Source: Halogeometricum limi (GTDB taxonomy: Archaea > Halobacteriota > Halobacteria > Halobacteriales > Haloferacaceae). From it: a stretch of 64,000 nucleotides of DNA. The translations under genes and the position numbers were made by a program. The notes under the pieces were generated by a model. The model had not been told where the DNA came from and did no database searches. It saw only the letters and a list, made by a program, of their open reading frames with translations. Shown one piece after another: positions 8,809 through 25,977 of this stretch (positions within the stretch are counted from its first letter, which is position 1; every line of letters begins with the position of its first letter). The DNA is taken from the NCBI RefSeq assembly GCF_900115785.1, contig NZ_FOYS01000005.1, forward strand, positions 186,001-250,000, written 5' to 3'.

Positions 8809-11145
8809 TTAGTCGCGGCGGACTGCGAGGAGCGCGGCGGCCAGGAGCGCCGTCACAGCGACGACTGCACCGAAGCCGGGCGTACTCGTCTCAGTCTCGG
8901 TCTCGGCGGGCGCTTCCGTCGCCGTTGCCGTCTCCTCAGGCTCTTCCGTAGCCATTTCGGTGTCGGTCGGCTCTTCCGTAGCCATTTCGGTGTCGGTCGG
9001 CGCTTCCGTAGCCGTGACCGTCTCGCTCACTTCCGTGCTGGTCTCGCTGTCGTTGTCCGCAGCGGAGACCGTACCGTCTGCGGTGATGGAGTCAGCGACG
9101 CCACCACGGACCGTCACGGTGAACGTGTCGTTCGCCGACTGCTCGCTGAAGTCGAACATCGCCTCGTACGTCCCGTTCTCGGTGACGTACGCGGTCGCCG
9201 TCTTCAGGAAGCTCGGCTGCGTGTCGCCGTCCGAGCGAACGCGGAGGTTGATTTCGGTGCCGGGTGCGACCGTCGTCTCGCCCGCTATCGACTGGTTCGA
9301 GGAGGCGGCGACCGTCACGTCGTCGAGCGTGTGCTCGGCTTCGACGAGTTCGAAGGAGTTCTCGACGGACTGCTCTTCGTCTGTGAGGTTACCCTCGTCC
9401 TTCGCGACCGTGAAGTTGGCCGTGAGGCCGTCACCGGCTTCGAGGTCACGGTCCGAGGTGTTGACCTCGTCCGTGTCGAAGACGATGAAGTAGGTGTCGT
9501 TCTCAGCGTCTGCGATGACCGTCGTGTTGTCCTCACCGAGGGCGAGCATGAACGGTTCGCGGTTTGCACCGGCTTCCGTCTGCTCGACCGTCAGCGAGTA
9601 CGCGCTGCCGTTCAGCGCGAAGAACGCCGCAGTCGTGTCGTCGTCAGTCGCTTCGAGCGCACCGGCGAGGCCGGACGCTTCGAGCTGGTGGACGGAGAGG
9701 TCGCCAAAGGCGACTTCGTCGTCCTGCGTGATGTTGCTGTTGTTGATCGCCGCGTAGACGTCGTCCGAGTCTTCGATTTCGGAGCCGTCTGCTGCCGTCC
9801 AGCTGTTGAGGCTCGTGGTTTCGCGCTCTTCGAGGACGAGCGTGCCGACGTCCTGCGTGTCGTCACCGCTTGCGACGCGCACTTCGAGGTCGTATTCGCC
9901 TGCGTCGAGGAGCGTCGAGACGTCCTCGGAGACGTCGCTGGACTCAACGCTGTCGTCGTCGTCAGCGACTTCGTAGAGCGAGTCAGCGTTGCCGCTGACA
10001 CCGGTTGCGGCGTAGGTGTTGAACAGGACCGAGACCTGCCCGTCACCGGAGCCGTCTTCGACCGTCACGTTGCTGACGAAACCGGAATCCTCGGAACCGA
10101 TCATCAGCGTTGCCTCGTCTGCGTTCTCGAGGTTGACCGTGATGTTCGCGATGTCACCGCGCTGTTCGCTGATGACTTTGCCGTCGTTCGGGAAGCTGGC
10201 TTTACCCTCGCCAGCCTTCGAGACGACGACAGACGAGGACTCGGCGGCGACGCCGGAGTCCAGGTCAGTTGCTTCGACCGTGTAGTTACCCGCGTCCGAG
10301 ACGCTGAAGCTGAAGTCAGCCTCTGCCTGGCCGCTGAGTTCGACGGTCTCGTTCTCGACTTCGTCACCGTCGGAGTCGAGGAGTTTCACGTTGACCGTGC
10401 GGTCGCCTGCGTTCGCAGTGACCGTCCCTTCGACGTCCGAGTCGGTGTCGATGGTCGTGTCGTCGACGTCAACGGAGAGGCCGAGGTCGCGAACCGTGAT
10501 GGACGCGTTGCGGCTCTGGTTGTTGTCGAGGACGACGTTGTACTGACCGAGGTCACGGCTTGCCGTGTCGAAGACGTAGACCGTACTGTTCGCGCCCGTG
10601 GAACCGGAGCGGAAGAACGAGTTGTCGTCAGCGTCGCCTTCGATCTCGACGTCCGTCGAGGTGTTCTCGGTGACGATGGCGACCTTGCTGCCCTGGTAGG
10701 CGTCGAGGTCGTCACCAGCTTCGACCGTCACGGGTGCGAACGCGACGGACTTCTCGCCCGCGTTCGAGATGTTCGCGCCCGTGGAGTTCTGGACGTCGCT
10801 CGAGATGTCGAGCGTGAGGTCGTTGGACTTGATGACGTCGGTCGTCTGGATGACGAGCGTGCCGTCGGTGGTCGAGAAGCCAGTGATCTCGTCAGAGACG
10901 TTCTCGCCATCGTCCATCAGGGTGAAGTTAGCAACCGTCTGGCTGCTGGAGTTCACTTCGGTGTTGAACGGTACTTCGATAACGGAGTTGCCACTCGTAT
11001 CGACGTAGTGGACAGCTCCACCTTCGTACATGAAGGTGTGGTCGTCGGCGGCAGCCGAACCCGTGAACGCGACGGAACCTGCGAAAACGGACAGGACCAT
11101 CAGCGCCGCGAGGAAGACTGCGCGGAATTGCGACGTTTGTGTCAT
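8809..11145 (-). CDS. csg: S-layer (cell surface) glycoprotein with PGF-CTERM anchor
   Basis: A 778-aa exported protein from the ATG at 11145. The Sec signal peptide MTQTSQFRAVFLAALMVLSV is followed by A-A-A-D-D and mature sequence starting HTFMYEGGAVHYV. The bulk is acidic, Thr/Ser/Asp-rich and beta-rich, with many N-x-S/T sequons (NSS, NVS, NQS, NDT) for N-glycosylation. A Thr/Glu-rich stalk near the C terminus (EPTDTEMATEEPTDTE) is suited to O-glycosylation. The end is a PGF-CTERM signal: PGFGAVVAVTALLAAALLAV then R-R-D, processed by archaeosortase A with lipid attachment. Use of T-rich and C-ending codons and lower GC than its neighbours fits strong expression. It forms the cell wall lattice outside the membrane. 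The neighbours are unrelated. Confidence 0.9.
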   Translation of the reverse strand: MTQTSQFRAVFLAALMVLSVFAGSVAFTGSAAADDHTFMYEGGAVHYVDTSGNSVIEVPFNTEVNSSSQTVANFTLMDDGENVSDEITGFSTTDGTLVIQTTDVIKSNDLTLDISSDVQNSTGANISNAGEKSVAFAPVTVEAGDDLDAYQGSKVAIVTENTSTDVEIEGDADDNSFFRSGSTGANSTVYVFDTASRDLGQYNVVLDNNQSRNASITVRDLGLSVDVDDTTIDTDSDVEGTVTANAGDRTVNVKLLDSDGDEVENETVELSGQAEADFSFSVSDAGNYTVEATDLDSGVAAESSSVVVSKAGEGKASFPNDGKVISEQRGDIANITVNLENADEATLMIGSEDSGFVSNVTVEDGSGDGQVSVLFNTYAATGVSGNADSLYEVADDDDSVESSDVSEDVSTLLDAGEYDLEVRVASGDDTQDVGTLVLEERETTSLNSWTAADGSEIEDSDDVYAAINNSNITQDDEVAFGDLSVHQLEASGLAGALEATDDDTTAAFFALNGSAYSLTVEQTEAGANREPFMLALGEDNTTVIADAENDTYFIVFDTDEVNTSDRDLEAGDGLTANFTVAKDEGNLTDEEQSVENSFELVEAEHTLDDVTVAASSNQSIAGETTVAPGTEINLRVRSDGDTQPSFLKTATAYVTENGTYEAMFDFSEQSANDTFTVTVRGGVADSITADGTVSAADNDSETSTEVSETVTATEAPTDTEMATEEPTDTEMATEEPEETATATEAPAETETETSTPGFGAVVAVTALLAAALLAVRRD
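8941..9000 (-). repeat. Perfect 30-bp tandem repeat in S-layer Thr/Glu stalk
   Basis: Bases 8941-8970 and 8971-9000 are identical, encoding two copies of a ten-residue unit read as MATEEPTDTE. A third partial copy follows at 9002-9013. This is in-frame expansion of the stalk before the PGF-CTERM anchor, likely by slippage. Confidence 0.9.
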
Positions 11146-16453: not shown

Positions 16454-18673
16454 CTACGACTCGGTGAAGTACGTACTGTACTCGGCGACGAACGACCGTA
16501 TCTCTTCGGAGGTGGGCGGTCGTTCGTGTTGCATGAAGAAGCTCGCGACGGCGTTCGCGAGGACGAGGGCCGGTCCGGACGTGAGCCCCTCCGCGAGTGC
16601 GAGCGACATCCCGCTGAGGAAGTGTTCGTCGACGTTCCGAAACTGATGCGGGTTCACGACCTGAGGCGCCCTCGCAGAGAGTACCTCGTCTCTCGTCGCC
16701 ATCGTCGCACCGCGCTGTGAGTGCATCACGTATCGGGACACGCCGAACCGGTCGCGGATGCGTTCGACAGTCGGTGTCGTCTCGGTTCCGTCCTCGTCGA
16801 GCAAGACGTCTCGGAATCGGCGCGTCTGGCTGCGGTTGGCCGTGAGCGTCACCGGGACGGCGTCGTCGAGGGCGGCCACCGACTCGCAGCCGGCTTCGAG
16901 TTCTGCCGGGGACAGTTGCGTGACTTCGCCGGGAACGAAGTGGACGTGACGGGGCGGCGACGAGAGCGCGGGCCACACGTTCGTCCTGAGCGCGTCGATA
17001 ATCTCGACCAGTTCGGGTGTCGAGTACCACGACCCGATAGTCATGACCGCGGTGCCGTCGACGTGGTCTGCGAACGCCTCGGTCCCGACTCGGTCGGCGA
17101 TACGGTCCCAATCGAGCGGTTCGAAGTTCGGTTCGGTGAGGAGGAACTTGCGGTCCTCGAACCAGACGTAGTCCGTACTGGACGTCTCTCCGAGCGTCAC
17201 CATCGTCTGGTCGGCGAAGCGCTCCGTGAACTCGGGACGAACCGGGTCGCCCATGCGACCGACGAGGGTGACGTCGTATCCGAGTTCGTCGAAGACGCCG
17301 CCGGCGTGGGCGACGAGTCCGCCGGGTTCCGTCCGGGTCTGGCGCCACTCCACGCGCGGCGGTGCGTCGCTCGCCTCGTACCGCACGAGCGACTCGCGGA
17401 ACGAGTCGAACTTCCGAATCTGTTCGTAGTCGCCCCCTTCCTCGCGGTGGATGAACTCCCGCATCCGGTCGACGAACGCGTCGAAGCAGAGGACCACGGA
17501 GCCGTCTCCGAACCGGTCGGGCAACTCGGTCCGACACGCGTCGAGGTACCGTCGGGTCTCGTCGTCCAGTCGGGTCGTGTGCGTCGTTCCGTTCTGTCGG
17601 AGTTCGATTCTGGTCGCGGCGTAGTCGACGTTTCTCGTCCCGGCGTCGCCGACGGTCACCGCGGGCGAGTCGATGCTCTCGGTGGCCGTCTGGACGTCGA
17701 CGGTAAGCGAGGCTCGGATGTCGTACTCGGTGTAGTAGTAACTCGTCAGCGTTCCCTGTTTCGTCACTTTCTCGCCCGTCTCCGTGTCGTACCCCTCGAA
17801 CCACACCTCGAAGGCGTCCACGGGATGGGCGTCGGTCAGCCTCGACACGTCGGCCAAGCAGTCTCGGATGCGGATGTACTCTTTCGGGAGCGCCGGGCGT
17901 TCGGTCTCTCCGGCGAGCGGTTTCGCCAGCGGCCAGATGGACTCCGAGAGGAACCGGTCCAGAACCAGCGCGAGGCTGGGGTTGGTCACGTAGTATCCTT
18001 GCCCGTCGTCGTCGGCGTGTTCGTGCCCCTCCTGAACCCAGTACAGTCCCCGGCGGCGGTCGGTCGTGAGCGCGAAGTCCTCTCGGGTGGAGACGAACCG
18101 CACCTCGTCGACGGCGTCAGGGAGCGACGAGAGTCCGTCCTCGAACTCGTCGCTCTCGGGCGAGACGTTCGAGACGACGACGCGTATCTGTTGGTCGGTA
18201 CAGCGTTCGAGTTCGTCGACGACTACGCCGAGTCGCTCGACCGGCGTGAGAAGCAGGATGTCTCGCTCGGCCGTCTGCAAGAGGTTGCTGATGTAGCGTT
18301 TGACCGTGCTCTCGCTTTTGAACAGGGCAACGCCGCTCTCGACGGTTTCGACGGTATCGTGCAGTTCCTCCAGATACTCTTCCGCCTGTGAAAGCTGAGT
18401 TCGAATCGACGAGAACGCCTCCGCGGGGTCGACCGCGTAGGCTTTCTGCGGGTAGTCGTCGATGACCTCGGCGAACCCCCGTTCACGGAGTCTGTCGACG
18501 ATGTCGTACACTCGCTGTTTGGGGACCTCACTCGTCTCTGCGATGTCCGTCATCGTCTGGGCTCCCCCTCGGACGAGTGCGAGGTAGACCTCGGTTTCGT
18601 ACGTCGTGAAGTCGACGTTGTCTTGGAGAGTCTCGCGGAGAAGCGCGAGTTTCGCGTCGTCCTCTGCGGTCAT
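16454..18673 (-). CDS. TrmB sugar-sensing regulator fused to PfkB-like kinase domain
   Basis: 739 aa from the ATG at 18673. Residues 20-85 are a TrmB winged helix (YETEVYLALVRGGAQTMTDI, VPKQRVYDIVDRL). Residues 115-365 are the TrmB sugar-binding domain, including WFEGYDTETGEKV and GTLTSYYYTEYDIRASLTV. Ordinary haloarchaeal TrmB proteins end near here. Residues 392-739 instead form a ribokinase/PfkB-type fold: CFDAFVDRMREF, then the GG...G block at 451-475 (AHAGGVFDELGYDVTLVGRM) and a final helix FLSGMSLALAEG. The usual GAGD catalytic loop is replaced by RNVDEH (679-684); by eye the catalytic Asp position is Glu and the anion-hole glycines are gone. This suggests a second sugar or sugar-phosphate sensor rather than an active kinase. 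It is divergent from the GH32 gene it likely regulates. Confidence 0.8.
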   Translation of the reverse strand: MTAEDDAKLALLRETLQDNVDFTTYETEVYLALVRGGAQTMTDIAETSEVPKQRVYDIVDRLRERGFAEVIDDYPQKAYAVDPAEAFSSIRTQLSQAEEYLEELHDTVETVESGVALFKSESTVKRYISNLLQTAERDILLLTPVERLGVVVDELERCTDQQIRVVVSNVSPESDEFEDGLSSLPDAVDEVRFVSTREDFALTTDRRRGLYWVQEGHEHADDDGQGYYVTNPSLALVLDRFLSESIWPLAKPLAGETERPALPKEYIRIRDCLADVSRLTDAHPVDAFEVWFEGYDTETGEKVTKQGTLTSYYYTEYDIRASLTVDVQTATESIDSPAVTVGDAGTRNVDYAATRIELRQNGTTHTTRLDDETRRYLDACRTELPDRFGDGSVVLCFDAFVDRMREFIHREEGGDYEQIRKFDSFRESLVRYEASDAPPRVEWRQTRTEPGGLVAHAGGVFDELGYDVTLVGRMGDPVRPEFTERFADQTMVTLGETSSTDYVWFEDRKFLLTEPNFEPLDWDRIADRVGTEAFADHVDGTAVMTIGSWYSTPELVEIIDALRTNVWPALSSPPRHVHFVPGEVTQLSPAELEAGCESVAALDDAVPVTLTANRSQTRRFRDVLLDEDGTETTPTVERIRDRFGVSRYVMHSQRGATMATRDEVLSARAPQVVNPHQFRNVDEHFLSGMSLALAEGLTSGPALVLANAVASFFMQHERPPTSEEIRSFVAEYSTYFTES

Positions 18674-18797
18674 TGTTCGCACCTCGTCGCCCTAGAATAA
18701 GCAACTTGCTGAACGGGACCGAAAGCGCGCGCCATGTGTACAGTAGACACGACCGACACACATAAGTTTGTAGACTTTCCTCACGATAGTTGTGAAT
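18674..18797. promoter_or_regulatory. Divergent promoters of TrmB-kinase and GH32 genes
   Basis: The plus side has a TATA-like CATAAGTTTG (18761-18770) about 30 bases before the GH32 ATG. The 17-bp motif TCACGATAGTTGTGAAT (18781-18797) abuts that ATG, and its TCAC/GTGA ends form a dyad. The minus side has CTTATTCTAGG as TATA-like DNA and an 11-bp palindrome AGCAACTTGCT (18700-18710) upstream of the regulator, a possible autoregulatory site. Confidence 0.5.
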
Positions 18798-20906
18798 ATG
18801 ATTTCCTGCGGTGGTCTCGCGGTGGAGACGCCGCATCACGTCGCGCACGTGAGTAGCACCGAGAGAGACCGCGACTCCGACAGCGACGAACTGGCTCTCT
18901 CCGACGTAGACGCGGAGACCCTCAGAGACTACGACGTCGTCTGGTGGCACCGAACGGCCGCGTTGGACGGTACCGCCAGAACCGACCTCGACGACGCGCG
19001 TGCGTCGCTCCGAGCGTTCGTCGAGGACGGAGGTGGGTTGTTGCTGACGCACGGCGCGGTCGAGGCGGCGGCCGAACTGGGCATCGAAGCGTGCCGTCCG
19101 GACGTGGTCGAGACGCCGACGGCGGAGACGACGGGGTTTCTCGTCCGTCGGCAGTACGAAGACCACCCGATATTCGACGGTATCGACGCGCTCCGACCGG
19201 AGGGAGCACCGACCGACGACGCTGTCTCGGTTCTCTACGACTCCGTCCATCCCCGCGACGCGGACGCACTCGCGTCTCGCCGCGTCGACGGCCGCGACCG
19301 GCCGAGCGAAGCATCGGTCTGCTCATGGTCAGTCGGCGACGGTCGTGTCGTCGGAGTCGGAAGTGGACTCGCCGCCTTGGAGACGGACGTTCAGAAACGA
19401 CTCGCGAACAACTGCGCCTCGTACGCCGCGGGCGAGGGAGAGACTCCCGCCGTCGCGGGGCGTCCGAAAGGCCGCGCGGAGTTCGAGGAACTTCGCGAGA
19501 CGGTCGCTGACCCGAACCACCGACCCGCGTACCACTTCACGCCGCCGGCGAACTGGCTGAACGACCCGAACGGACTCGTCCAGTGGGACGGCCGGTACCA
19601 CTTGTTCTACCAGTACAACCCGGCCGGGCCGTTCCACGATACCATCCACTGGGGACACGCCGTCTCGGACGACCTAGTGTCGTGGACGGACGAACCCATC
19701 GCGCTCTTTCCCGACCAGGAAGGCCCCGACGAGACGGGCGTCTGGTCGGGGTGTTTCGTCGACGACGACGGGACGCCGACGGTCATGTACACCGGCGGGG
19801 CGGGCAAAGACCAGTTGCCGTGTCTCGCGCGGGCGGACGACGACTCGCTCCGAGAGTGGACGAAGGCGCCCGAGAACCCCCTCGTACAGAGTATCCCGGA
19901 CGACGTCGGTATCCTGCAGACCGCCGATTGGGACCGGGAGTTCAGAGACCACTGCGTCTGGCGAGAAGACGGGACGTGGTACCAGATAATCGGGTCCGGT
20001 ATCGACGGCGAGGGTGGGGCGGCCCTGCTCTTCGAGTCGGAGGACCTCCTGGAGTGGGAGTACCGCCACCCGCTTCTCACCGGCGACTGGCGAGCGACCG
20101 GTCCGATGTGGGAGTGTCCCGAACTGCTTCGCTTCGAGGACGGCGCGATACTCCACGTCTCCGACTACTCGAAGGTCGCCTACTTCGCCGGTGAGTACGA
20201 CGAGTCGACTCACCGGTTCGAACCGGAGACGGAGGGACTCCTCGACCACGGCGTCTTCTACGCGCCGCAGTCGTTCGTCGACGACGACGGTCGGACGCTG
20301 ATGTTCGGGTGGCTCAAAGAGGACCGAGACGGGGCGAGTCAGTGGGACGCCGGGTGGTCCGGTGCGATGTCGCTTCCGCGGGTCGTCTCGCTCACCGAAG
20401 ACGGGACGCTGCAGTACGCGCTCCCAGACGAACTGCAGACGCTCCGGACGGACCACCACTCGTTCGCGGGGCTTTCGGTCTCGCCCGGCGACTCGACGAC
20501 GCTCTCGGACGTCGAGGGAGACGCGTTGGAAGTGAAACTGACGGTCGACGCCGCGAACACCGGCGAGTTCGGTGTCGTCCTCCGCGAGACGCCCGACGGC
20601 GAAGAACGAACGGTCGTTCGGTGCAACGTCCGGCGGCGGAGCGTCGTCGTCGACCGGTCGCAGTCCTCGAAGAGCGACGCCGTGAACGACGGCGCACAGT
20701 CGATGCCGATAACGCTCGACGAGGACGGCACGCTCTCGCTTCACCTGTATCTCGACCGCTCGGTGTTGGAGGTGTTCGCGAACGACGCCCAGGCGCTCGC
20801 GACGCGAATCTACCCCACTCGAGCGGACAGCACGGGCGTCTCGGTGTACGCCACCGACACCGACGTGTCCTTCGAGACGCTCGATATCTGGCACCTCGAT
20901 AGCTGA
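18798..20906 (+). CDS. GH32 beta-fructosidase with N-terminal amidotransferase-like domain
   Basis: 702 aa, no signal peptide, so it acts on imported sugar in the cytoplasm. Residues 1-225 form an alpha/beta domain resembling ThuA/class-I glutamine-amidotransferase-like folds (LRAFVEDGGGLLLTHGA, SVGDGRVVGVGSG), unusual for a fructosidase. The GH32 five-blade propeller starts near 245: WLNDPNG holds the nucleophile Asp256, FRDHCVW carries the transition-state Asp384 (RDP in most members, RDH here), and WECPELL has the acid/base Glu439. The C-terminal beta-sandwich ends with LYLDRSVLEVFANDA. Likely substrates are sucrose, fructo-oligosaccharides or levan/inulin fragments. It is followed after about 60 bases by its ABC importer. 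The ATG at 18798 is chosen over the GTG at 18792. Confidence 0.92.
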   Translation: MISCGGLAVETPHHVAHVSSTERDRDSDSDELALSDVDAETLRDYDVVWWHRTAALDGTARTDLDDARASLRAFVEDGGGLLLTHGAVEAAAELGIEACRPDVVETPTAETTGFLVRRQYEDHPIFDGIDALRPEGAPTDDAVSVLYDSVHPRDADALASRRVDGRDRPSEASVCSWSVGDGRVVGVGSGLAALETDVQKRLANNCASYAAGEGETPAVAGRPKGRAEFEELRETVADPNHRPAYHFTPPANWLNDPNGLVQWDGRYHLFYQYNPAGPFHDTIHWGHAVSDDLVSWTDEPIALFPDQEGPDETGVWSGCFVDDDGTPTVMYTGGAGKDQLPCLARADDDSLREWTKAPENPLVQSIPDDVGILQTADWDREFRDHCVWREDGTWYQIIGSGIDGEGGAALLFESEDLLEWEYRHPLLTGDWRATGPMWECPELLRFEDGAILHVSDYSKVAYFAGEYDESTHRFEPETEGLLDHGVFYAPQSFVDDDGRTLMFGWLKEDRDGASQWDAGWSGAMSLPRVVSLTEDGTLQYALPDELQTLRTDHHSFAGLSVSPGDSTTLSDVEGDALEVKLTVDAANTGEFGVVLRETPDGEERTVVRCNVRRRSVVVDRSQSSKSDAVNDGAQSMPITLDEDGTLSLHLYLDRSVLEVFANDAQALATRIYPTRADSTGVSVYATDTDVSFETLDIWHLDS

Positions 20907-20945: not shown

Positions 20946-20967
20946 CTGTGTGAGAGTGGTTGTGATG

Positions 20968-22119
20968 ATGAGTGGTATCACGATAGACAATGTACGAAAG
21001 GAGTACGACTCCGACGCCGGGACGATACGCGCCGTCGACGACGTGAGTCTCGATGTCGCAGACGGTGAGTTTCTCACCATCGTCGGACCCTCAGGGTCGG
21101 GTAAGTCGACGCTCCTCCGGATGATAGCGGGTCTCGAAGACATCACGGACGGGGAGATACGAATCGGCGAGACGGTCGTGAACGACATCGCCCCGCAGAA
21201 CCGCGGGGTCGCGATGGTGTTCCAGAACTACGCGCTGTATCCGCACATGAGCGTCCGGCAGAACATGTCATACGGGCTCAAGTTGACGACCGACCTCGGG
21301 TCCGACGAGATACGGCGTCGCGTCGAGAGCACCGCGGAGATGATGGGTATCGGTGACCTCCTCGACAAGAAGCCGAACAATCTCTCGGGCGGACAGCAAC
21401 AGCGTGTCGCGACGGGACGGGCCATCGTCCGTCAACCGGACGTGTTCCTGTTCGACGAACCGCTGTCGAATCTCGACGCGAAACTCCGCCTCCACATGCG
21501 GACCGAACTCCAGCGGATACAGGACGAGTTGGACACGACGTCGGTGTACGTCACCCACGATCAGAGCGAGGCGATGACGATGTCCGACCGAATCGTCATC
21601 CTCTCTGAGGGGACGATTCAGCAGGTCGGAACGCCGGCCGAAGTGTACGCCGAACCGGTCAACCGGTTCGTCGCCGACTTCATCGGGTCGCCGTCGATGA
21701 ACTTCTTCGACGTCCGCCTGGAGAACGGCGTACTGCAGGGTGCGGACTTCGACTACGAGATTCCGTCCGGACTGGCCAGCACCGTCGAAGCGAACCGCAC
21801 CGCCGAAAACCTCGTCCTCGGAATCCGTCCCGAACACGTCAGCGTCGACACCGAAGGCGAAGAAACCGTCACGGCGACGCTCGACGTCCTCGAACACGAG
21901 GGCAGCGACAACTACCTGTACCTCTCGAACGGCGACACCGAGTGGACGGTCCGCGTCGACGGGAGCACGCGTTTCGAGTGGGGCGAATCCGTGGAGTTCA
22001 CGCTCCCGGCCGAACACCTCCACGTCTTCGACGGCGAGACGGGCGAGAACCTCGTCGCAGACGAAGGAGCGACGGCGACGACGGACGGGTCGTCGGTGAC
22101 CGCGTCCGTTCGAGAGTAA
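20968..22119 (+). CDS. CUT1 ABC importer ATPase (MalK/UgpC-like)
   Basis: A 383-aa ATPase subunit. Walker A is GPSGSGKST (residues 40-48), the Q-loop is MVFQNYALYPHMSV, the signature is LSGGQQQR, Walker B is FLFDEPLSNLDAKLR, and the switch His is in YVTHDQSEAMTM. The C-terminal third is a TOBE/MalK regulatory domain (LVLGIRPEHVSV), which in MalK-type proteins can contact regulators. It energises the fructo-oligosaccharide/sucrose-type importer formed with the next three genes. The ATG at 20968 (MSGITIDNV) is chosen because it follows the TATA-like box by the usual distance; the frame is open to 20950. Confidence 0.95.
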   Translation: MSGITIDNVRKEYDSDAGTIRAVDDVSLDVADGEFLTIVGPSGSGKSTLLRMIAGLEDITDGEIRIGETVVNDIAPQNRGVAMVFQNYALYPHMSVRQNMSYGLKLTTDLGSDEIRRRVESTAEMMGIGDLLDKKPNNLSGGQQQRVATGRAIVRQPDVFLFDEPLSNLDAKLRLHMRTELQRIQDELDTTSVYVTHDQSEAMTMSDRIVILSEGTIQQVGTPAEVYAEPVNRFVADFIGSPSMNFFDVRLENGVLQGADFDYEIPSGLASTVEANRTAENLVLGIRPEHVSVDTEGEETVTATLDVLEHEGSDNYLYLSNGDTEWTVRVDGSTRFEWGESVEFTLPAEHLHVFDGETGENLVADEGATATTDGSSVTASVRE

Positions 22120-22120
22120 G

Positions 22121-22142
22121 TTTAATAACGATAGTGATTAAT
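22121..22142 (+). promoter_or_regulatory. Internal promoter and motif before binding-protein gene
   Basis: TTTAATAA (22121-22128) is about 25-30 bases before the ATG at 22152. It overlaps TAACGATAGTGATTAAT (22126-22142), the third copy of the locus motif. It fits extra, separately controlled expression of the binding protein, as is common for ABC importers. Confidence 0.5.
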
Positions 22143-22151
22143 CTACAATCC

Positions 22152-23531
22152 ATGTCACAGACTGACAACACAGCGGAGAGAGCGAATCGCGTCGTCGACC
22201 GTCGCCGCGTCCTGAGCGCGACCGGAACAGCACTCGCGGCGGGACTGGCCGGATGTTCCGGACTCACCGGCGGCGGTGGCGGCCAAAGCACCGACAGCGG
22301 CACCGACGGCGGCGGGTCGAGCGGCGACGTCGAGATAGACTACTGGATGTACTTCGGGGCGCAGGAGAACAAGGAGATGACCCAGTTGGTCGAGGAGTTC
22401 AACTCTCAGGACAACGGCATCCACGTGAACAAACAGAGCGTGCCGTTCCCCGAGTTCCTCAACAAACTGTTCACGGCGGTCAACTCCGGCAACGCGCCGC
22501 ACGTCGCCAGTTACTACGGTTCCTACGGCCGCCACCTCGAACCCATCACGCACCCCATCGATGACTACCTGTCCGACGGGGCGAAAAACGAGTACTTCGA
22601 TATCGCCTGGAACAACTTGCAGGTCGACGGGTCGACGTACGCGCTCCCCATCGACATCCACGGGAAGGCGCTGTACACCAACGACGACGTCTTGGAGTCG
22701 GCCGGTGTCGACCCCAACTTCGACGACTGGGACGCGTTCTCAAGCGCCTGCGACACCATCGTGAGCGACACGGAGTCGCGGGCGTTCTCGTTCATCAACT
22801 GGAAGGTGGGACAGGCCGCGTTCCGCGCGTACATCATCGCGCTCGAACAGGCCGGCGGTCAGGTCGTCACCGGCGAACCGGGGAGCTACGAGGTAGCCTA
22901 CGACGACGACGTCGGGATGCAGACGGCCGAGATGATGGCCAAGATAACGGGCGAGTACGGGTGGGATACGTCGCAGTTCCAGAGCGACGCCGCGCGGGTC
23001 CAAGACTTCATCAGCGGCGACCTCGGGATGTTCATCGCGGGCACGTGGTCGGTCAACAACTTCGAGAACGAGGACGGGAACCTCCCCGAAGACCTCTCGT
23101 TCAGCTTCGAGAAGCCGTTCATGTTCCCCGGCGACGGCGAAGACGTCGCGTGGTGTGAGTCGAACTCGCTGTACTTCCCGAAGAACGCCAACCACACGGA
23201 CGCGGAGAAGCAGGCGGCCGTCGAGTTCGCCGAGTACGTCACGCAGAACAACACGCTGTGGGCCTCCGCGGGTGGCCACCTCCCGGCCGCGAAGTCCGTC
23301 GCCACGTCGAGCGAGGTGAAGAACACCGACCTCTGGCAGAAGTACGGCACGATACAGACGATGTACGAGATGGTGACGAACAAGCAGGTCCGCTACCAGC
23401 CGCAGACGTCGGTCCACATCAACAGCGACCGGTTCTGGGGGCCGTTCCTCGACATGTACCTCCAGAACACCGACGTCCAGTCCGGCGTGACCGCCAGCGC
23501 CGATGCCCTCTCGCAGGCGCTGAACCAGTAG
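22152..23531 (+). CDS. CUT1 sugar-binding lipoprotein
   Basis: A 459-aa extracellular solute-binding protein family 1 member. The N terminus has a Tat-type lipoprotein signal (DRRRVLSATGTALAAGLAGC) followed by a Gly/Ser linker, as usual in haloarchaea. The body (VEIDYWMYFGAQENKEMTQL, FINWKVGQAAFRAYIIALEQ, MFIAGTWSVNNFEN) follows the MalE/UgpB pattern. The ATG at 22152 is fixed by the signal sequence and the preceding promoter. It delivers a fructoside or related oligosaccharide to the permeases; substrate identity is inferred from the GH32 neighbour. Confidence 0.93.
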   Translation: MSQTDNTAERANRVVDRRRVLSATGTALAAGLAGCSGLTGGGGGQSTDSGTDGGGSSGDVEIDYWMYFGAQENKEMTQLVEEFNSQDNGIHVNKQSVPFPEFLNKLFTAVNSGNAPHVASYYGSYGRHLEPITHPIDDYLSDGAKNEYFDIAWNNLQVDGSTYALPIDIHGKALYTNDDVLESAGVDPNFDDWDAFSSACDTIVSDTESRAFSFINWKVGQAAFRAYIIALEQAGGQVVTGEPGSYEVAYDDDVGMQTAEMMAKITGEYGWDTSQFQSDAARVQDFISGDLGMFIAGTWSVNNFENEDGNLPEDLSFSFEKPFMFPGDGEDVAWCESNSLYFPKNANHTDAEKQAAVEFAEYVTQNNTLWASAGGHLPAAKSVATSSEVKNTDLWQKYGTIQTMYEMVTNKQVRYQPQTSVHINSDRFWGPFLDMYLQNTDVQSGVTASADALSQALNQ

Positions 23532-23541
23532 GTGAGACGAA

Positions 23542-24462
23542 ATGAGTAACGTCGAAACGACGGGCACTCGTTCGCCGAGTCGCTGGGAGCGGTTGTTCGA
23601 CCGGTCGACGCGAGAACTGCTCGTGGGGATGCTGTTCGCCGCCCCGTACCTCGTGCTGTTCTCCGTGTTCCTGCTGTACCCGCTGTTGAAGGGGCTGTAC
23701 ATGAGCCTCCACGAGTGGAACTTCCTCGAACCGTCGAAGTCGACGTTCGTCGGCTTGGAGAACTACACGAGACTACTGGAGGACCCGGCGTTCTGGAACG
23801 CGCTCTGGAACACGCTGGAGTTCGTGGGGCTGACCGTCCCGCTCATCGTCGGTATCAGCCTCGTCCTCGCGCTCGGACTGAACAAGGAACTGGTCGGGAG
23901 TCGCGTCCTCCAGTTCGTCTACTTCAGTCCGTACGTGCTGACCGTCTCCGTCGTGGGCATCGTCTGGGCACAGATGTTCGCACAGGGCGGGGTCGGCACG
24001 CAGTACCTCGGGTGGTTGTTCGAGGGGTCGCCGTTGAACTCGAAGTTCTGGGCGATGCCCGCCATCGTCGTCACGACGGTGTGGTGGCAGGCGGGGTTCT
24101 ACTTCGCCGTCCTGCTCGCAGCCCGCCAGAACGTCCCGGCGCGACTGTACGAAGCCGCCCGACTCGACGGCGCGGGCCCGTGGCGGATGTTCCGCGACGT
24201 CACGCTTCCGCACATGAAGAACGCGCTGTTGTTCGTCGTCATCGCGTCGACTATCTTCCAGTTCCAAGTGTTCGGACAGCCGTACCTGATGACGAAGGGC
24301 GGACCGGTCGGGAGTACGGAGACGCTCGTGTACTACCTCTACGAACTCGGATTCCAGACGCGTGAACTCGGATTCGGCGCCGCGGTCGGATACACGCTCT
24401 TATTGATACTGGTTGGCGTGTCGATGCTGAACTACGTGCTCGTGGGGACCAACGATGAGTAA
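23542..24462 (+). CDS. CUT1 ABC permease (MalF-like)
   Basis: 306 aa with six membrane helices (first: LVGMLFAAPYLVLFSVFLLY). The EAA loop that docks on the ATPase reads YEAARLDGAGPWRMFRDVTL followed by P. It forms the translocation channel with the next gene. It starts 10 bases after the binding-protein stop, and its last codons overlap the next start (ATGA at 24455), so the two permeases are translationally coupled. Confidence 0.95.
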   Translation: MSNVETTGTRSPSRWERLFDRSTRELLVGMLFAAPYLVLFSVFLLYPLLKGLYMSLHEWNFLEPSKSTFVGLENYTRLLEDPAFWNALWNTLEFVGLTVPLIVGISLVLALGLNKELVGSRVLQFVYFSPYVLTVSVVGIVWAQMFAQGGVGTQYLGWLFEGSPLNSKFWAMPAIVVTTVWWQAGFYFAVLLAARQNVPARLYEAARLDGAGPWRMFRDVTLPHMKNALLFVVIASTIFQFQVFGQPYLMTKGGPVGSTETLVYYLYELGFQTRELGFGAAVGYTLLLILVGVSMLNYVLVGTNDE

Positions 24463-25324
24463 CGCAGACTCCACCCAGTCGGTGCTGAATCGCGTGACGG
24501 ACAGAGACGTTCTCCGGCGTATCGGACTCTACGCCGTGATGTACGGGCTGGCTATCGTGTTCTTCGTCCCGTACTGGCGGATGTTCCAGCTGTCGGTCAC
24601 TCCGATGAGCGTGCTCTCGCAGGGTGGGTTCCACTGGATTCCGCCGGAGTTGACGTTCGCAGTGTGGCAGCGGTACCTGCTGCAAGAGCCCATCATCTAC
24701 CAGTGGGCGTTCAACACGTTCCTCGTCGCCAGCATCACCACCGCCATCGTCCTCGTGGTCGACTCGATGATCGCGTTCTCCATCACGCGACTCGACTGGC
24801 CCGGACAGGGAATCATCTTGGCCGTCATCATGGCGAGCTTCATGATTCCCGGCTACGTCAACATCATCCCGCTGTACACGCTCATCAACGACCTGGGTCT
24901 GATGAACTCCTACTGGGCCATCATCCTCCCGTTCGCCGCGGGACCGCTGGGCGTGTTCTTGCTCGTCCAGTTCTTCCGCGACATCCCGGAGGAGCTAGAG
25001 GAGGCCGCGCGACTCGACGGCTTCTCGTCGCTCCGAATCTACGCGCGCATCATCCTCCCGCTATCGACCCCTATCCTGACCGCGCTCGGTCTGTTCGTGT
25101 TCATCTGGAGCTGGAACCAGTTCCTGTGGCCGCTCATCGTCTTGAACGACGACGCGCTGTACACGCTTCCAATCGGCGTCGTGACGCTTCGCGACGTCAA
25201 CGCGCTCGCCCCGAACGTCATCATGACGTCGCTGGCGCTCGCGTCGCTCCCGCTGTTCATCGTCTTCCTGCTGTTCCAAGACAAGCTCATCTCCAGCGTA
25301 CAGATGCAAGCGGGGACGGGGTGA
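24455..25324 (+). CDS. CUT1 ABC permease (MalG-like)
   Basis: 289 aa with six membrane helices. The EAA motif is LEEAARLDGFSSLRIYARII. The N terminus (LYAVMYGLAIVFFVPYWRMF) and the late segment TALGLFVFIWSWNQFLWPL are typical of MalG/UgpE proteins. It overlaps the upstream permease by eight bases and is followed within a few bases by the YesL-like gene, so one operon is likely. Confidence 0.95.
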   Translation: MSNADSTQSVLNRVTDRDVLRRIGLYAVMYGLAIVFFVPYWRMFQLSVTPMSVLSQGGFHWIPPELTFAVWQRYLLQEPIIYQWAFNTFLVASITTAIVLVVDSMIAFSITRLDWPGQGIILAVIMASFMIPGYVNIIPLYTLINDLGLMNSYWAIILPFAAGPLGVFLLVQFFRDIPEELEEAARLDGFSSLRIYARIILPLSTPILTALGLFVFIWSWNQFLWPLIVLNDDALYTLPIGVVTLRDVNALAPNVIMTSLALASLPLFIVFLLFQDKLISSVQMQAGTG

Positions 25325-25329
25325 GCCGG

Positions 25330-25977
25330 ATGGTCGGCACAGCGGACCAACGGGCGTTCCGCCGGGCGCTGTCGACCGTGCCGGGATTCGTCTACCGAAA
25401 CGGGCTCCGGCTAACGCTCGTGAGCGTCCTCTGGGCGCTCGCGTCGCTCCCGCTCGTGACCATCGGCCCCGCGACGCTCGGGGCCTACGTCGCGATACGG
25501 GACCTGCGGAGCGACCGAAACCGTCTCGACGCGGACCACGTCCGTCGGGTACTACGCCGGAACGGCGCCGCGAGCGCGCTGTTCAGCGGCGTTCCCGTCG
25601 TCTTCGGAGCTATCGCCGTCGCGTACGGTCTCACCGCGCTCGAACGGGGCTCCGTCGCCGGTGAAGTCGTCGCACTCGTCGCCGGCTACGTCGCGCTGTA
25701 CGTCGCGCTCGCGTTGATTCCGACGTACGTCGCACTGGCGGACGGGGACGACCCCGTCGACGCGTTCGGGTACGGCGTCCGATGGCTCGTCCGCCATCCG
25801 ACCGCCGCGCTGGCGATGGGACTCCTCACCGTCGCCATCCTGGCGGTGACCGTGCTCTTGACCGTCGCCTTCGCCCTGACGTTCGCGGGGGTCGCGTTCT
25901 CCCTTCAAATCAGCGTCGTCGAAGCGGTGAACGGACGGGAGCGAGGCACCGCCGCGCCGTCGGTCGTCGCACACTGA
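25330..25977 (+). CDS. YesL/DUF624-family membrane protein
   Basis: 215 aa with about five membrane helices. The family start VYRNGLRLTLVSVLWALASL is followed by PLVTIGPATLGAYVAIRDL. DUF624/YesL proteins are frequently encoded beside carbohydrate ABC importers; their role is unknown but may be in importer assembly or regulation. The ATG at 25330 is chosen, though a GTG at 25321 that overlaps the previous stop is possible. It is the last gene of the fructan operon. Confidence 0.8.
   Translation: MVGTADQRAFRRALSTVPGFVYRNGLRLTLVSVLWALASLPLVTIGPATLGAYVAIRDLRSDRNRLDADHVRRVLRRNGAASALFSGVPVVFGAIAVAYGLTALERGSVAGEVVALVAGYVALYVALALIPTYVALADGDDPVDAFGYGVRWLVRHPTAALAMGLLTVAILAVTVLLTVAFALTFAGVAFSLQISVVEAVNGRERGTAAPSVVAH

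Follow-up and report, generated by a model that had tools for sequence, protein, structure and literature searches.

The window, a 64,000-nucleotide stretch of the Halogeometricum limi genome, carries on its minus strand an open reading frame of 739 codons counted from its ATG; an alternative in-frame start, a GTG, lies nine bases before it, at 18682. The coordinates given for this gene in the initial annotation, 16454–18673, were recovered exactly. The gene faces a divergent cluster encoding a GH32 fructosidase and an ABC importer (ATPase, solute-binding protein and two permeases), as had been proposed from the first inspection. Features of the locus are:

16454–18673, minus strand: TrmB-ketohexokinase fusion protein, 739 aa (ORF, Pfam)
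18425–18628, minus strand: TrmB winged helix PF01978, residues 16–83 (Pfam, E 2.1e-17)
17597–18331, minus strand: TrmB effector domain PF11495 (Regulator_TrmB), residues 115–359 (Pfam, E 9e-23)
16478–17569, minus strand: ketohexokinase-family domain PF25270 (Khk), residues 369–732 (Pfam, E 1.8e-113)
16826–16837, minus strand: degenerate NXXE motif, N613-R-S-Q616, Glu lost (alignment)
16625–16630, minus strand: degenerate GAGD loop, D682-E683 in place of the catalytic Gly-Asp (alignment)
18753–18766, plus strand: promoter element of the GH32 gene, CCGA plus CACATAAG, BRE/TATA-like (conserved)
18778–18796, no strand assigned: candidate operator, TTCACAACTATCGTGAGGA on the minus strand, core TCAC-N7-GTGA at 18781–18795 (conserved)
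18798–20906, plus strand: GH32 fructosidase, ATG at 18798; a GTG at 18792 falls within the candidate operator
20950–22119, plus strand: MalK/UgpC-type ABC ATPase
22023–23531, plus strand: sugar-binding lipoprotein SBP_bac_1 (open frame scanned)
23542–24462, plus strand: ABC sugar permease 1
24455–25324, plus strand: ABC sugar permease 2
25324–25977, plus strand: conserved small membrane protein at the cluster end, without a Pfam match

Since the scanned frame of the lipoprotein overlaps the ATPase gene, its true start is expected further downstream than 22023. The GH32 protein has no signal peptide evident by eye, which would place the release of fructose in the cytoplasm. Its N terminus carries about 240 extra residues with a weak ThuA/DUF4960 match below the family cut-offs, and the same extension is present in two relatives (L041 and L109). 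The small membrane protein also closes the importer cluster in most other loci with a CUT1-type importer.

Pfam scores for the fusion protein exceeded the cut-offs for all three domains: 63.1 bits (cut-off 25.6) for PF01978, 81.2 bits (22.2) for PF11495 and 379.9 bits (35) for PF25270, the last match spanning positions 1–365 of a 365-position model. An AlphaFold2 model had a pLDDT of 79 for the whole protein, and of 88 with a pTM of 0.87 for the C-terminal domain. In Foldseek searches the N-terminal half matched TrmB (3qph, E 2e-19) and the C-terminal domain resembled E. coli Pfk-2, ribokinases and HldA, the Pfk-2 and ribokinase matches having a target-normalised TM of about 0.7. The predicted order of a TrmB winged helix, an effector domain and then a ribokinase fold is thus confirmed by Pfam and by the structural model, and we regard the fusion itself as virtually certain. 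The label of a PfkB-like kinase was right in fold and too general in family: the full-length Khk match, together with the absence of a PfkB match in the Pfam scan, eliminates a generic PfkB identity and places the domain, by homology, specifically in the prokaryotic ketohexokinase family. Neither the ROK domain PF00480 (Pfam scan) nor the NCBIfam sugar-kinase model PRK09954 was matched at E up to 1, and the score of 128.7 bits against NF047392, the haloarchaeal TrmB equivalog, lies below its curated cut-off of 500.

Searches of 170 genomes from the family of H. limi and 392 from its order, together with plasmid records and genome contigs, recovered 23 TrmB-Khk fusions in total, one of them truncated and all of them haloarchaeal. 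With 23 fusions in independent genomes, an isolated oddity or a mis-assembly could be discarded. The fusion is a recurrent haloarchaeal family, and it includes two full-length members with an intact kinase; both aspects were missing from the initial annotation. TrmB, Regulator_TrmB and Khk were all matched in each of the 22 full-length proteins, which NCBI labels as TrmB-domain proteins only. The full fusion is patchily distributed across the order (16 of 392 genomes in the order-wide sample, from eight families), and plasmid-borne copies occur in Halomarina, Haloarcula halophila, Natrinema, Haloterrigena turkmenica (pHTUR01) and Halomontanus. Beyond Halobacteriales, no fusion was detected at E≤1e-100 among 393 genomes of the phylum or in a pattern scan of genome contigs, neither search being exhaustive.

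Several loci are of unusual structure. A single Haloferax gibbonsii contig carries two divergent fusions separated by about 25 kb (L043 and L044), which lie near different GH32 genes and transporters. On a Haloarcula halophila plasmid (L104, 779–10327) there is a second, damaged copy of the whole GH32/importer/TrmB-Khk cluster, in which the fusion gene is broken into frames of 195 and 502 residues. The truncated member (G334; L113, 8491–10287) is an apparently intact-type gene that ends after about 590 residues at a junction with unrelated sequence, glycosyltransferase-like by eye and in another frame. The junction reflects either recombination or an assembly error, and this copy, joined as it is to another gene, was left out of the motif counts.

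The 22 full-length fusions were aligned with 18 unfused haloarchaeal ketohexokinases, giving a comparison of 20 unfused or intact-fusion sequences with 20 degenerate fusions. Two classes of fusion emerged, one of 20 pseudokinases and the other of three intact-type proteins, including the truncated one. The unfused kinases and the two full-length intact fusions (L111, and L112 from Halospeciosus flavus) carry the active-site motifs SANRxE, with small variations, and TTSAGDHF or TTSSGDHF. In the pseudokinases neither the Glu of NXXE nor the Gly of GAGD is kept in any sequence (0/20 each), the position of the catalytic base is occupied by Asp (nine), Glu (eight), Ala (two) or Asn (one), and the equivalents of R449, R585 and Y548 are likewise missing from all 20. 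The window protein reads NRSQ where the active family has NRxE, and FRNVDEHF where it has TTSAGDHF, which bears out the reported replacement of the GAGD loop by RNVDEH. A profile alignment with solved structures of 1-PFK, ribokinase and KDG kinase identified the lost motifs as NXXE and GAGD. The window protein retains D398, D402, H456 and the glycine pair of the substrate region, G451 and G452, already recognised in the first inspection. Across the class, D402 and GG451–452 are kept in 20/20 fusions and D398 and H456 in 19/20 each. From established knowledge of the ribokinase family, we expect these residues to face the sugar. Since NXXE and GAGD are lost while the sugar-side residues stay, the loss in the pseudokinase class is, on the alignment, selective for phosphoryl transfer.

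Two further positions, both invariant in the kinases, have changed: A502 is Tyr, Phe or Leu in 20/20 pseudokinase fusions and E504 is Gln, Trp, Arg or another residue in 19/20. These changes suggest that the pocket of the kinase-derived domain may have been remodelled and, if the two positions line the sugar pocket or its lid, the ligand may be other than fructose. The dN/dS of the Khk half is about 0.08–0.25, with similar values for the TrmB effector half; the Khk half is under purifying selection. A decaying or pseudogene domain was rejected on the basis of these ratios and of the conservation.

Characterised members of the Khk family convert fructose and ATP to fructose-1-phosphate (PMC11519228). 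The initial annotation had offered a dead kinase acting as a sensor and an active one as alternatives; the loss of NXXE together with GAGD in all 20 pseudokinases favours the former, and the kinase of this class is, to judge from its motifs, very likely dead. Because Asp is kept at the catalytic base in nine of the 20, and Glu in the window protein, residual activity may persist in the class.

The genomic neighbourhoods differ by class. A GH32 gene lies within about 10 kb of 19 of the 20 pseudokinase fusions, usually divergently oriented, and a sugar importer, CUT1-type or dipeptide-type, is mostly present beside the GH32-linked fusions; the association spans several families. In G417 (L110, 12224–13315), the lone pseudokinase fusion without GH32, a DUF2961 gene is found two genes upstream on the same strand; DUF2961 is presumably a fructoside-active family of the GH172 type. 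The intact-type fusions, including the truncated one, adjoin a solute-binding protein and permeases in mannitol/sorbitol-type operons, and the two full-length ones additionally adjoin an ATPase, an alcohol dehydrogenase and a class I aldolase. A Halomarina cluster of the same layout has an unfused Khk gene in the slot of the fusion. In content the intact-fusion loci resemble the Haloarcula hispanica genes for mannitol and sorbitol (PMC11519228).

These observations bear on whether the fusion is a bifunctional trigger enzyme, in which the fused domain is active, perhaps slowly, and couples fructose phosphorylation to regulation. In L111 and L112 both SANRxE and TTSAGDHF are present, and the genes occupy the position that an unfused ketohexokinase has in Halomarina; active fusions of this type thus very probably exist. 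For the window protein, the acidic E683 at the catalytic-base position and the absence from the H. limi genome of a second Khk above the family cut-off point the same way. However, no member of the pseudokinase class keeps the NXXE Glu, the anion-hole Gly, or the equivalents of R449, R585 or Y548, and H. limi has other routes for fructose, namely a fructose PTS/1-PFK/class II aldolase cluster (the aldolase assigned by eye) and a separate fructokinase-like gene, because of which the window protein may be dispensable as an enzyme. We consider a bifunctional window protein unlikely and favour a kinase-derived domain that senses and does not catalyse.

In the TrmB half, recognition-helix residue Y56 is invariant among the fusions and D57 nearly so; both are present in the window protein. 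The sugar contacts of P. furiosus TrmB are Asn305, Gly320, Met321, Val324, Ile325 and Glu326, of which the characterised sugar-binding TrmBs share G320 and E326 (PMC4158304). In an alignment that is free of gaps around the last five contact residues, the window protein has D343 and V349 in place of G320 and E326. Both equivalents are lost in the window protein and in that of Halogranum amylolyticum, and the E326 equivalent is missing from seven fusions, which group together as a single clade in the TrmB tree (support 97/89, and 96/90 in a second tree). The effector domain of the window lineage is unlikely to bind sugar as other TrmBs do, so that the kinase-derived domain becomes the likely sensor; in this lineage it may be the sole one. 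The description of the window protein as having two sugar-sensing modules is consequently not supported in that form. A two-input sensor, with the TrmB domain responding to glucose or sucrose and the pseudokinase to another sugar such as fructose, would fit many of the relatives, given that the E326 equivalent survives in 12 of the 20 pseudokinases and that sucrose and maltose are ligands of P. furiosus TrmB (PMC4158304); in view of D343 and V349, and of the loss of E326 throughout the seven-member clade, it is improbable for the window protein.

Across ten loci of matching gene order, the promoter of the GH32 gene is arranged as a BRE/TATA-like element followed by TCACGATAGTTGTGA (18781–18795 in the window) and the ATG (18798). 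The 19-bp block is the best-conserved part of the promoter region in these loci, with an information content greater than that of the TATA element, and the 16-base core pattern has one perfect copy in the H. limi genome. TCAC-N7-GTGA is expected by chance about twice per 64 kb; since the inverted-repeat core is not rare by chance, it is conservation that supports the candidate operator. The block shares its TCAC and GTGA half-sites with the TrmBL1 site TATCAC-N5-GTGATA, the gap being 7 bp here and 5 bp in TrmBL1 (PMC4158304). Binding at a site downstream of the TATA box leads to repression by TrmB-family regulators (PMC10817205), and the candidate operator is in such a repressor position, between the TATA box and the GH32 start. 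A subgroup of loci (L048, L106, L108 and L049, the last being pHTUR01 at about 9960–10000) lacks the TCAC-N7-GTGA block and has, just upstream of the fusion gene, another conserved stretch, ACTACTATACTCCTCTAGT or close to it. Repression of the facing GH32/importer operon by the window protein appears likely from this arrangement; autoregulation, or activation in place of repression, is possible.

The domain architecture, the loss of two catalytic motifs with the sugar side kept, purifying selection, synteny and the promoter block, all of them features of the sequence, are consistent with a TrmB-type repressor that controls a fructoside import and hydrolysis operon and senses the inducer through a catalytically dead ketohexokinase, a reading that we hold to be somewhat better supported than not. 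In the absence of inducer, a winged-helix dimer would bind TCAC-N7-GTGA between the TATA box and the GH32 start codon and block transcription of the GH32/ABC-importer operon. Fructosides that enter the cell would be cleaved by the cytoplasmic GH32 enzyme, and the fructose set free, or a close relative (sucrose, fructose-1-phosphate), would bind the kinase-derived domain without being phosphorylated; the resulting change in that domain would free the DNA. The pseudokinase would thereby have taken over sensing from the TrmB effector domain. That the pseudokinase responds to some fructose-related ligand seems probable. Haloarchaeal ketohexokinases are homodimers (PMC11519228) and a DNA-binding factor needs a dimer, so the domain might instead be a dimerisation scaffold or nucleotide sensor only, with no part in sugar sensing, the conservation of the Asp and Gly residues being structural. 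The residues kept are, however, those expected to face the sugar while those of phosphoryl transfer are lost, and the fusions are associated specifically with fructoside loci; we rate a scaffold or nucleotide sensor as the least likely of the alternatives and retain sugar sensing by the dead kinase. Extended to the family, the intact-Khk fusions would be enzyme-regulators of sugar-alcohol operons and the dead-kinase fusions pure fructose sensors, with sensing in the window lineage wholly in the pseudokinase, a tentative scheme to which we give slightly less than an even chance.

The history of the fusions is consistent with more than one path. In the Khk tree the pseudokinase fusions form one clade (100/99), whereas the intact ones fall among unfused kinases, and a single clade of all fused Khk domains was rejected (p-AU 0.0096), with long branches present in the tree. 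The TrmB halves, for their part, allow all the fusions to be placed in one clade (support 70/81). Since the Khk and TrmB trees disagree on a single origin, either two fusions or the replacement of a kinase domain would account for the family. Unfused TrmBs that are nearest to the fusions exist. On a Haloarcula marina plasmid (L051, 9980–12091), an unfused TrmB close to the fusions has a fructokinase-like PfkB gene about 40 bases downstream of it, and this pair adjoins an importer, an AGE epimerase and a sulfatase.

The initial annotation knew of no described example of this arrangement, and in the literature searched, which included few subscription papers, we likewise found no published description of a TrmB-ketohexokinase or TrmB-PfkB fusion, nor any kinase-derived transcriptional regulator described for archaea or among TrmB regulators. 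Elsewhere, kinase-derived sensors in transcription factors are known, from bacteria (ROK) and yeast (Gal3). HTH-PfkB proteins of the E. coli YeiI type, a possible parallel, combine a helix-turn-helix with a PfkB-type kinase; they differ in having a small HTH only and a kinase of another subfamily. Yeast Gal3 is a non-enzymatic sensor, a kinase relative acting in transcription. The plastid PfkB-type proteins FLN1 and FLN2 are likewise metabolic kinase relatives recruited to transcription (PMC3409070). Unlike the fusions, Gal3 and FLN1/FLN2 are separate proteins that work through partners and have no fused DNA-binding domain. The ROK family includes both kinases and transcriptional regulators (PMC4856308), and its repressors Mlc and NagC also join a helix-turn-helix to a sugar-kinase-type domain; that domain has another kinase fold (PF00480, not matched by the window protein), there is no TrmB effector domain, and the described regulators are bacterial.

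Closer to the window protein are the haloarchaeal TrmBs (Halobacterium VNG1451C and Haloarcula hispanica TrmB; NF047392), which share the winged helix and effector domain, the Tyr-Asp pair of the recognition helix, the control of sugar genes and repression from sites that lie downstream of the promoter (PMC4158304, PMC10817205). Compared to these, the window protein has an extra domain of 370 residues and has lost the G320 and E326 equivalents, and its candidate site is TCAC-N7-GTGA rather than TACT-N7/8-GAGTA. The haloarchaeal ketohexokinases (HVO_1812, HAH_1078 and rrnAC0343; PF25270) share the full-length family match, the fold and the sugar-side residues. Those characterised are unfused, ATP-dependent fructose 1-kinases (PMC11519228) encoded beside fruK and aldolase genes, whereas the window domain is fused to TrmB, lacks the NXXE Glu and the GAGD Gly and Asp, and lies beside GH32 and an importer.

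A search by the ketohexokinase family name will therefore also collect non-enzymes, and proteins publicly annotated just as TrmB family regulators gain a probable function and target. Fusions whose kinase is apparently intact, fusions whose kinase is apparently dead, and unfused forms of both the kinase and TrmB occur within one order, and because all of these forms coexist, the change from enzyme to sensor and the possible loss of the older sensor domain are directly testable. If our reading is correct, a metabolic enzyme would have been turned into a sensor of its own pathway in archaeal regulators.
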